A stretch of DNA of 59,141 nt, taken from NCBI GenBank assembly GCA_902512585.1, contig CABXJW010000003.1, positions 1 to 59,141 of the forward strand. The letters run 5' to 3'. The position numbers were made by a program, and so were the translations under genes. Below, piece by piece: positions 25,111-27,901 of the stretch. Numbering within the stretch: the first letter of the stretch is position 1; the number at the start of each line of letters is the position of its first letter. Under the pieces are notes generated by a model. It saw nothing but the letters and a program-made list of their open reading frames with translations, ran no database searches and was not told the origin of the DNA. The stretch comes from an uncultured Woeseiaceae bacterium. Its GTDB lineage: Bacteria > Pseudomonadota > Gammaproteobacteria > Steroidobacterales > Woeseiaceae.

Positions 25111-25220
25111 ATTTTTATCACTTCGAATTTTTAGAATATTATAACTCTCATTGAGATCTTAAAATAGCAATGATATTGAGCTTCTTTTTTAAATAATTTA
25201 TTAAATTATTTAAATGTAAA

Positions 25221-25249
25221 TTGATCCTCTGATTATTTATTAGTATCAT
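25221..25249 (+). promoter_or_regulatory. Sigma70-type promoter of the glnA leader
   Basis: TTGATC (25221-25226) and TATCAT (25244-25249) are separated by 17 nt. The predicted transcription start near 25256 lies just upstream of the riboswitch-like sequence, which supports the reading of that sequence as a 5' leader. Confidence 0.6.
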
Positions 25250-25261
25250 ATCTTGGATGGT

Positions 25262-25352
25262 GTAATTCGTACAACCTGCAAAAAGTTGGTTCTAAACCAA
25301 TATTGAGACGCAAGTAAGCCGAAGCTGAAGAAACGGAGTCGTTTATCTCAAG
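25262..25352 (+). promoter_or_regulatory. Glutamine riboswitch-like element (glnA RNA type) in the glnA leader
   Basis: From 25305 the RNA reads GAGACGCAAGTAAG, then CCGAAG, then CTGAAGAAACGG, which aligns base by base with the 3' half of the glnA (glutamine) aptamer as I remember it: GACGGAAGTAGG, a short hairpin, then GAAGGAACG. P1 can form between TTCGT (25266-25270) and ACGGA (25333-25337). P3 is AGC/GCT (25317-25319 with 25324-25326) closed by CGAA. A 6-bp hairpin TTGGTT/AACCAA (25286-25300) lies in the P2 region, which is longer than usual. TTGAGA (25303-25308) can pair instead with TCTCAA (25346-25351), a plausible switch. Glutamine binding is inferred. Confidence 0.68.
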
Positions 25353-25390
25353 AGTCTATCTTCTATTGCCAGTATTAAATGAGTAATTTA

Positions 25391-25406
25391 TTCGACGTAA
25401 GTCGAA
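25391..25406 (+). promoter_or_regulatory. GTAA-capped hairpin before the leader ORF ribosome-binding site
   Basis: TTCGAC and GTCGAA form a perfect 6-bp stem closed by the GNRA-type loop GTAA. It ends 1 nt before the strong Shine-Dalgarno GAGGAG (25408-25413) of the small ORF, so it could shape ribosome access. It is one of four short hairpins in this 240-nt leader. Confidence 0.5.
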
Positions 25407-25417
25407 CGAGGAGCAAT

Positions 25418-25507
25418 ATGAATAATCTAGTAAATACTATGTTGGGTATATCCCAATCCATACCTATTATAAATTTTAATCTACTAAGGAGTGTTAATAA
25501 TGACTAA
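25418..25507 (+). CDS. 29-codon leader ORF overlapping the glnA start
   Basis: ATG at 25418 follows GAGGAG by 4 nt. The peptide begins [16 protein letters not shown] and ends LLRSVNND; its stop TAA (25505-25507) lies just past the glnA ATG (25500), so the two frames overlap by 8 nt. The coding stretch contains a hairpin TTGGG/CCCAA (25442-25456) and the glnA Shine-Dalgarno. I recognise no homologue. It may be a leader peptide that couples translation to glnA, or a functional small protein such as those found behind glutamine riboswitches in cyanobacteria. It is untested. Confidence 0.5.
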
Positions 25508-26909
25508 TGCAGAAGTTTTAGCGCTAATTAAAGATAAAGACATTAAATTTATAGATTTTCGTTTTACTGATACAAAAGGCAAAGAGCATCATGTCTCAGT
25601 GCCAGCACACACGATAAATGAAAACGCCTTTCAAGATGGAAAAATGATTGATGGATCTTCATTGGGTGGCTGGAAGCCAATTAATGAATCAGACATGATT
25701 CTTTTGCCAGATTCATCATCTGCGGTGATAGATCTTTTTGCTGAAGATGAAACATTGAACCTGAGATGTGATGTTATTGAGCCCTCTACAATGAAAGGTT
25801 ATGATCGTTGCCCAAGATCACTCGCAAAAAGAGCAGAAGCTTATTTCAAATCCACAGGAATAGGAGATGATGTTTTTTTTGGACCAGAAAATGAATTCTT
25901 CATTTTTGATGATGTGCGTTGGGACGATGGCATGAAGGGTGCATTTTATGCGATTGATTCTACGGAAGCTGTTTGGAATACTGGAAAAGAGTATGCAGAG
26001 GGTAATACAGGACATAGACCAGGTGTGAAGGGTGGTTATTATCCAGTACCTCCAGTTGATTCTTTACATGATATTCGTTCTGCTATGTGTCTGGCTTTAG
26101 ATGAAATGGGCGTGGAAACAGAAGTTCACCATCACGAGGTAGCAACTGCTGGCCAATGTGAAATTGGAGCTAAATATAGTACATTGACAAGAAAAGCTGA
26201 CGAAGTGCAAATCTTTAAATATGTGGTTCATAATGTTGCACACAGTTACGGTAAAACAGCTACGTTCATGCCAAAACCTATAGTGAACGACAACGGAAGC
26301 GGTATGCATGTGCATATGTCTATTTTCAAAGACGGTAATAATCTTTTTACTGGGGACGGTTATGGTGGCCTTTCAGAAACTGCATTACATTATATTGGAG
26401 GCGTGATAAAACATGCCAAAGCTATTAATGCTTTTACCAATCCTGCCACAAATAGTTATAAAAGATTAGTTCCTGGTTTTGAGGCACCAACTATATTGGC
26501 TTATTCTGCTCGTAATCGTTCTGCTTCCATCAGAATACCGTATGAAGCAAATGCAAAGGCGCGAAGAGTTGAGGTGCGTTTTCCTGATTCAATGGCAAAT
26601 CCGTATTTAGCGTTTTCTGCCCTGATGATGGCTGGGCTAGATGGAATTAAAAACAAAATCCATCCTGGAGAAGCAATGGACAAAGATCTTTATGATCTTC
26701 CCCCTGAAGAAGAGAAGGAATTGCAACTAGTAGCCTTTTCATTGGATGAAGCGCTTGAAGAATTGGATAAAGATCGGGAGTTTTTAAAAGCAGGCGATGT
26801 ATTTAGTGATGATATGATTGATGCTTACATTGCACTTAAAATGGAAAATGTTACACGTTTGAGGATGACAACTCATCCAGTTGAGTTTGACATGTATTAC
26901 AGTTTATAA
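25500..26909 (+). CDS. glnA: Glutamine synthetase, type I (GSI-beta)
   Basis: 469 residues from the ATG at 25500, identical in length to E. coli GlnA, with AAGGAG 8 nt upstream; an in-frame GTG 9 nt earlier is inside that site. Catalytic signatures are FFGPENEFF, the ATP-binding [16 protein letters not shown] region and the loop around [10 protein letters not shown]. The adenylylation Tyr is kept in [10 protein letters not shown] (Tyr398). So post-translational control by GlnE-type adenylylation is possible in addition to the RNA leader. It makes glutamine from glutamate, ammonia and ATP in the cytoplasm. Confidence 0.98.
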
Positions 26910-26924
26910 AACAAACTGAAATTT

Positions 26925-26955
26925 AAAAAGCCGGTTTAAAAACCGGCTTTTTTTT
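26925..26955. terminator. Bidirectional rho-independent terminator between glnA and pyrD
   Basis: AAAAGCCGGTTT and AAACCGGCTTTT form a perfect GC-cored stem with a minimal loop, flanked by an A tract on one side and a T tract on the other. It can therefore stop both rightward glnA and leftward pyrD transcripts, whose 3' ends meet here. Confidence 0.92.
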
Positions 26956-27901
26956 ATGTTTTGAGGCTGCCAACTATCTCATGAACGGATTGTATATTAT
27001 GTTTAGCCATATAACTGATAAGCTCTTCATTAATTTTTTTACATATCATTGGATCATAAAAGAGAGCAGTGCCGATTCCAACTGTAGTTGCGCCAGCTAT
27101 TAGGAACTCTAGTACATCATTTGAATTTGTTATGCCGCCTTGCCCTAAGATTGGAATCCCATGTGGCTCAGCTACTTCATAGACTTGTTTGACTTTTAGT
27201 AATGCGATTGGTTTGATAGCTGGACCTGACAATCCACCTTGTACATTTGCAATTATGGGCTCACGAGTTTCAGTATCAATAGCCATACCCATAACAGTGT
27301 TTATAACACTTAAAGCATCTGCACCTGCTTCGATGCATTGACGAGCATTTTCTTTTATATCAGTTTGGTTTGGCGAAAGTTTTGCAATTATCGGTTTACT
27401 TGTTCGCTTTCTACAAGCGTTAATAACTTTTGCAGACATCTCAGGATAGTTACCAAAAGAGACGCCACCCTCTTTTATATTTGGACATGAGATATTTATT
27501 TCAATTGCTGAAACCATTGAATCATCGAATTTCTCAGTTACTGCACCATAATCATCAATGGTTGAGCCACAAACATTAGCAATGAAGTGTGTTTCATTGG
27601 CTATAAGGTTTGGCAAAATTTTATCTATCACATGCTCACAGCCCGGATTCTGCAAACCAATAGCGTTTAACATGCCCATGGGCGTTTCATAGACACGATG
27701 ATTTTTATTGCCCAGTCGTGGTTCAAGCGTTGTCCCTTTTAAGACCACCCCACCAACATCTGTATTCGAAAAACCATCTATTCTTGTGTATTCTTCTCCA
27801 AAGCCGACACAGCCAGATAATAAAATAGTTGGCGAAGATAAAGATAAATTACAAAAATTTGTCTGGAGAGGTCTTGTGGGATTTGTTTTGTTTTTATCCA
27901 T
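26954..27901 (-). CDS. pyrD: Dihydroorotate dehydrogenase, class 1B type
   Basis: 315 residues. FMN-binding and substrate motifs are those of class 1 enzymes: EINISCPNIKEGG with the catalytic Cys, AKLSPNQTDI, and GQGGITNSNDVLEFLIAGATTVGIGTA near the end. There is no N-terminal membrane helix of the class 2 enzyme normal in gammaproteobacteria. Class 1B enzymes work with an FeS/FAD subunit PyrK; none is encoded in this window. It oxidises dihydroorotate to orotate in pyrimidine synthesis. It could also act as a related dihydropyrimidine dehydrogenase, but the length and motifs favour PyrD. Confidence 0.82.
   Translation of the reverse strand: MDKNKTNPTRPLQTNFCNLSLSSPTILLSGCVGFGEEYTRIDGFSNTDVGGVVLKGTTLEPRLGNKNHRVYETPMGMLNAIGLQNPGCEHVIDKILPNLIANETHFIANVCGSTIDDYGAVTEKFDDSMVSAIEINISCPNIKEGGVSFGNYPEMSAKVINACRKRTSKPIIAKLSPNQTDIKENARQCIEAGADALSVINTVMGMAIDTETREPIIANVQGGLSGPAIKPIALLKVKQVYEVAEPHGIPILGQGGITNSNDVLEFLIAGATTVGIGTALFYDPMICKKINEELISYMAKHNIQSVHEIVGSLKT

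Follow-up and report, generated by a model that had tools for sequence, protein, structure and literature searches.

The window, that is, the whole stretch of DNA analysed, is an entire 59-kb contig (59,141 nucleotides) from G000, a gammaproteobacterium with a small genome (assembly of 1.1 Mb with a completeness of 66%), whose glnA has its nearest sequences in named Woeseiaceae assemblies. A short open reading frame (ORF) lies there between glyS (name assigned by sequence), in divergent orientation, and glnA. The following features were assigned:

25221-25249, + strand: sigma-70-type promoter TTGATC-17-TATCAT (alignment read by eye)
25256-25375, + strand: conserved core of the leader RNA (alignment and covariance model CM R1)
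25291-25330, + strand: sub-threshold match to the glutamine riboswitch aptamer RF01739 (20.1 bits against a cutoff of 35, relaxed search)
25327-25331, + strand: GAAGA, invariant in 11 aligned leaders; might pair with UCUUC at 25359-25363
25359-25363, + strand: UCUUC, invariant in 11 aligned leaders; could pair with GAAGA or with GAGGA of the Shine-Dalgarno sequence (25408-25412), a putative switch
25391-25406, + strand: hairpin immediately 5' of the Shine-Dalgarno sequence (compensatory changes among G000, G001 and G003)
25408-25413, + strand: Shine-Dalgarno sequence GAGGAG, at the site of the GSII Shine-Dalgarno sequence of relatives
25418-25507, + strand: 29-codon ORF (ATG 25418-25420, TAA 25505-25507)
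25421-25472, + strand: probable decayed 5' coding sequence of a GSII gene (nucleotide-profile comparison)
25486-25491, + strand: glnA's own Shine-Dalgarno sequence AAGGAG, inside the ORF
25500-26909, + strand: glnA, type I glutamine synthetase (GSI), ATG at 25500; vertical by tree

The ORF described in the original prediction was confirmed with its 29 codons, its ATG at 25418 and its TAA at 25505-25507; its stop overlaps the glnA start as ATGACTAA, the arrangement of ppe2-type coupling, and the overlap measures 8 nt. Its ribosome-binding site, GAGGAG, was rightly called stronger than usual for the window: by a rough counting rule, a 5-nt Shine-Dalgarno match was present in 4, a 4-nt match in 7 and none in 37 of the 48 window ORFs of at least 150 aa. 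The ORF also contains the glnA Shine-Dalgarno sequence, as had been claimed; this AAGGAG is comparable to the CGGAG of the relatives G004 and G007, and from about 25472 on the sequence is glnA's own 5' end. The frame is open further 5' to an ATG at 25379, before which no Shine-Dalgarno sequence was seen by eye. A second assembly of the same species (G119) differed at one of 450 aligned bases, outside the ORF, so that an assembly fault is unlikely.

By using 280 nt of the leader as query, 119 relatives were searched; besides G000 itself, matches were obtained in G001 (86%) and G003 (82%), both of the same genus. Both carry the same promoter, leader of about 120 nt, Shine-Dalgarno sequence and ATG beside glyS, and there the ATG opens a GSII gene. 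The G001 product (322 aa) contains both glutamine synthetase Pfam domains, and its best NCBIfam match is GlnII with 356.8 bits, below the family cutoff of 500; family scans covered G001, plus Pfam for G490. A covariance model built from the three leaders (CM R1) identified 16 places in 10 of the 396 genomes of the order, namely in four of the nine genomes of the genus and in six of the 11 of another small-genome family (f13). Six of the 12 places in f13 precede GSII (four genomes) and six precede a TonB-dependent receptor gene, identified by Pfam in G490 and by eye in the remaining ones. Among the ten leader-bearing genomes found, GSI follows the leader in the window's species alone (two assemblies); judged from these genes, the leader's usual glutamine synthetase partner is GSII, and GSI appears to be the exception of this species. 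With stricter filters, CM R1 matched only G000 among 369 genomes sampled across the class. The leader was found neither in phages nor, as an exact 28-base pattern, in IMG/VR. It was likewise not found before the GSII genes of G399/G293 (72-73% identical), either by a short pattern (18 loci) or by Rfam at E<=1, for which the input was nine of those 18 loci together with L032 and L033.

Some features of the leader's surroundings were recorded in passing. Tandem copies of the leader core precede GSII in two f13 genomes (L187/L189 in G495, L184/L188 in G496), and tandem RF01739 aptamers likewise occur in G149. The f13 places before a TonB-dependent receptor gene are spread over six genomes (L165, L182, L183, L185, L186 and L190); in G490 this gene is divergent from a glyS-like gene.

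Conservation of the region was uneven. The hexamers and spacing of the promoter are kept in G001 and G003, except for one -10 base in G001; the promoter assignment rests on this conservation, because the number of promoter-like sites in the region (four, against a shuffle mean of 3.0) is close to the shuffle level. The core at 25256-25375 is identical to that of G001 at 113 of 120 aligned bases and to that of G003 at 112 of 120 (a 4-nt gap left out), while four-fold degenerate sites are only 33-38% identical between G000 and G001 (three genes); this difference shows that the leader is still under selection, now together with GSI. Shine-Dalgarno sequence, spacer and ATG share 14 of 16 bases with G001 (counted by eye), and in the hairpin at 25391-25406 two of the five predicted pairs each have one sequence in which both bases are replaced. 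Global measures of structure were less informative: the folding energy of the leader was no better than that of shuffles, so simple folding was not taken as support for the RNA, and the whole-structure counts of the alignment were reached by 53 of 500 shuffles and are thus not clearly above them. GUUGGU and ACCAAC could form a long-range helix, paired in 86% of cells, in which both bases are altered at one pair; it was set aside.

A riboswitch had been assumed upstream of the ORF. Searched at the Rfam gathering cutoff, the window leader gave no match; in the relaxed search RF01739 was the top family. The RF01739 scores, taken over all 53 model positions, were 24.9 bits for the leader of G001 and 23.7 for that of G003; these two and the window leader alike fell short of the cutoff of 35 bits. 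Scores of this size were also reached elsewhere: ten genomes of the 369-genome class sample matched RF01739 at E<=0.1; in six of them besides G000 there was one match each, at 20.3-22.5 bits, and RF01739 was also matched in two archaeal controls. A lone score of 20 bits is noise level, and the window's score was therefore not used alone, because 20-22 bits occur in unrelated genomes. The case for kinship is that the match falls at the same site in three genomes, that the core motif is present and that a glutamine synthetase gene follows. As in the type I glutamine riboswitch (glnA motif, RF01739), the core consists of GACGNAAGUA, a 3-bp P3 hairpin and GAAG, before a glutamine synthetase gene; across 11 leaders, GACGCAAGUA and GAAG are invariant and P3 is 100% paired. 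The leader differs from that family in scoring below the Rfam cutoff (by about 15 bits in the window and by 10-11 bits in the sisters), in a weak P1 and in long conserved flanks. In the sub-cutoff match of G001, two of five pairs in P1 and one of five in P2 are nonstandard; in the 20.1-bit match of the window, P1 lies outside the match and P2 has one nonstandard pair of five. The riboswitch assignment thus stands in part: strong conservation, the weak match at one place in three genomes and the downstream glutamine synthetase speak for it, and membership of the Rfam family (20.1 against 35 bits) does not hold. The leader is probably a diverged RNA related to the glutamine riboswitch, with glutamine as its putative ligand.

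Above the cutoff, RF01739 was matched in two of the 369 class genomes, G149 and G403, both small gammaproteobacterial genomes, in which it precedes GSI, small ORFs and GOGAT-like genes (names by eye). The matches at L176/L178 (G149) and L167/L177 (G403), with 57.6-71.1 bits, lie before GSI glnA and putative glutamate synthase subunit genes.

For the origin of the ORF, a nucleotide profile of the sequence after the start codon was derived from six leader-borne GSII genes, and every ATG of the window was scored on both strands. None of the 2313 window ATGs scored above the ORF start at 45, 60 or 75 nt; at 30 nt, one or none of 2314 did, depending on the gap cost, and one of 4000 dinucleotide shuffles equalled the ORF's score. 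The alignment spans 52 nt with three indels (one 2-nt insertion and two 1-nt gaps); 30 to 33 of 50 aligned bases are equal to each GSII gene, 32 of 50 in the case of G001, in contrast to 113 of 120 in the adjoining leader core. Weaker results were obtained with the two genes of G001 and G003: local alignments were not above shuffles, of 1000 shuffles, 63 and 14 did as well as the anchored alignments, and 8, 4 and 10 of about 2313 window ATGs were as good at 40, 60 and 72 nt. With six genes the similarity to GSII behind the same leader is beyond chance. Derivation of the ORF body from the GSI 5' regions of G004 and G007 was rejected, since local alignments were not above shuffles; these regions reached GSII-profile scores of at best 8.2 and 12.4, whereas the ORF scored 18.3. 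We regard it as well supported, and as highly probable, that the 5' half of the ORF represents the decayed start of a displaced GSII gene, whose start codon the ORF most likely still uses.

Gene content at the locus fits into a simple history. GSI was not found at E<=1e-100 in G001 and G003 (81% and 86% complete), and a GSII query gave only weak matches in G000, G119, G007 and G004 (E 4.1e-9, 4.4e-9, 6.7e-8 and 3.1e-7), all within GSI. Neither of the two enzymes nor glyS was matched in G002, G005 and G006, perhaps because their assemblies are incomplete; a GSII elsewhere in the window's species is possible at completeness values of 66% (G000) and 52% (G119). In a tree of 11 neighbouring proteins, part of which are present in outgroups, G000, G004 and G007 formed one group (local support 1.0) that excluded G001 and G003; the GSI tree agrees with it, so GSI looks vertically inherited. 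On the simplest account of the order of events, an ancestor would have carried a leader-GSII unit upstream of GSI, beside glyS; GSI would have been lost in G001/G003, the leader-GSII unit in G004/G007, and the GSII body alone in G000. The window's species would retain the promoter, the leader, the Shine-Dalgarno sequence and the start codon, followed by some 17 decayed codons that now adjoin the original 5' end of the GSI gene. No tandem GSII-GSI intermediate was seen. Four-fold sites between G000 and G004/G007 are 33-39% identical, near saturation, while the relic is still 64% identical, which would place the loss of GSII well after this divergence. Downstream, a dihydroorotate dehydrogenase gene (window 26954-27901) is common to G007 and the outgroups G009, G012 and G019; around the locus of G003 and G004 none was found, and the only match in G001 is one of 25%.

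As to function, the leader would probably control whether ribosomes reach the former GSII start codon. With the core bound by ligand, UCUUC would be freed and hide the Shine-Dalgarno sequence, a proposed OFF logic. If the leader gates the sequence at 25408-25413, glnA is reachable only by translation of the ORF (or by protection of the mRNA): ribosomes finishing the relic frame at 25507 would re-initiate at the glnA ATG at 25500, and control would pass to GSI. The ATGACTAA overlap suits termination-reinitiation. Such translational coupling, one of the two roles offered in the original prediction, is plausible and is the mechanism we favour. UCUUC and GAGGA are paired in the predicted fold of the window from 25359 on, and other leaders fold differently near the Shine-Dalgarno sequence; the alternative switch helices are invariant across leaders, hence no covariation signal exists for or against them. 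Glutamine as the ligand, the switching and the translation of the ORF are all putative, read from the sequence. Whether the ORF is functionally coupled to glnA seems to us evenly balanced. We hold the account as a whole, in which a GSII relic start is controlled by the inherited riboswitch-like leader and re-initiation passes this control to GSI glnA, to be rather more probable than an even chance.

The strongest alternative is that the ORF is an inert relic, glnA initiating at its own Shine-Dalgarno sequence and the leader acting otherwise, on the level or stability of the mRNA. The AAGGAG of glnA is well spaced, so that glnA may do without the ORF, and the body of the ORF has accumulated changes, indels among them. 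The overlap of stop and start is by itself not rare: when bodies were shuffled and read in random frame, 17.5% gave a stop within -20 to +15 of the glnA ATG. Against these points, the Shine-Dalgarno sequence, spacer and ATG have been kept far better than the relic that follows them (14/16 by eye against 32/50, both relative to G001), and the frame remains open up to the glnA start. No terminator-like site was detected on the + strand in 25111-25600, which speaks for translational control; a terminator-type switch was rejected on this ground. On balance an inert relic appears somewhat unlikely.

A second alternative, compatible with coupling, concerns descent: a relative resembling G001 might have passed leader and GSII start to the G000 lineage through recombination, in place of inheritance from the genus ancestor. 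G004 and G007, closer to G000 by the tree, have neither leader nor GSII, as recombination would allow; however, judged by eye, G000 and G001 have diverged in the promoter flanks and the linker, as expected of an old split, and the glyS adjoining the leader resembles that of G004/G007 (83% against 77-78%). Inheritance from the ancestor is preferred, and recombination is considered unlikely.

The original prediction had also offered a peptide that binds or inactivates glutamine synthetase, like cyanobacterial IF7/IF17, and a small ORF adjoining glnA behind a glutamine-riboswitch-like leader gives this reading its appeal. The peptide matched neither Pfam (E<=1) nor NCBIfam (E<=0.001), and by these scans it has no sequence match to the inactivators IF7/IF17 or DUF4278; the GSII relic with its indels accounts for the sequence. 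The eight other leader-bearing genomes have a GSII or receptor gene in place of the peptide, relatives thus keeping the leader RNA but in effect not the frame, and the reading was given up as very improbable. Attenuation of transcription by a leader peptide, which a short ORF in the leader of an amino-acid synthesis gene might suggest, is scarcely credible given a peptide with one Gln codon and no terminator-like site on the + strand.

Two small ORFs behind RF01739-like RNAs were encountered elsewhere. One, of 52 aa with repeated YRGV stretches, lies in the 1.2-Mb gammaproteobacterial genome G293 (L168:1698-1856) downstream of an RF01739 match that scores 34.2 bits (cutoff 35) and contains a long insert; the ORF itself reached 25.1 bits against DUF4278 (E 2.4e-5, cutoff 25.3). 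The other, very basic and of 43 aa, follows two tandem RF01739 riboswitches on the minus strand of the 0.9-Mb genome G149 (L179:1350-1481); it had no Pfam match and is a candidate for a protein like the glutamine synthetase inactivating factors outside cyanobacteria.

Several known systems resemble parts of this arrangement. Passages of PMC6316151 describe glutamine riboswitches as restricted to cyanobacteria, with links to glutamine synthetase genes limited to environmental sequences, and DUF4278 behind them for cyanobacteria; a glutamine riboswitch is also reported from marine phages in part of PMC9004378. In cyanobacteria, glutamine binding is reported to raise expression, whereas the leader here is proposed to switch OFF (PMC6316151, in part). 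IF7/IF17 share with the present case a small ORF tied to a glutamine riboswitch and to regulation of glutamine synthetase; the ORF here differs in having no family match and in overlapping glnA in cis (same source, in part). For ppe2 of M. tuberculosis, control of an upstream ORF by a B12 riboswitch and termination-reinitiation are shown in the portion of PMC11260477 used here. A riboswitch, a leader ORF overlapping the next start and (here proposed) coupling are common to both; ligand and RNA are different, the ORF described here would be the relic of a displaced gene, glnA has its own Shine-Dalgarno sequence, and in our case translation of the ORF is putative. In the open-access literature, most subscription papers being outside this scope, no title on riboswitches and gene displacement or on Woeseiaceae and glutamine synthetase covered the combination.

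In small-genome Gammaproteobacteria, these results show that genes for GSII and for TonB-dependent receptors can be preceded by a divergent RNA resembling the glutamine riboswitch. For the window's species we tentatively propose, at slightly less than even confidence, that a riboswitch outlived its enzyme gene: the GSII leader and start, kept by selection, may relay glutamine control to GSI via the relic frame, which would serve as a landing pad for ribosomes. If true, this would be a natural hand-over of a riboswitch between enzyme classes at one locus, with the start of a dead gene as the adapter.
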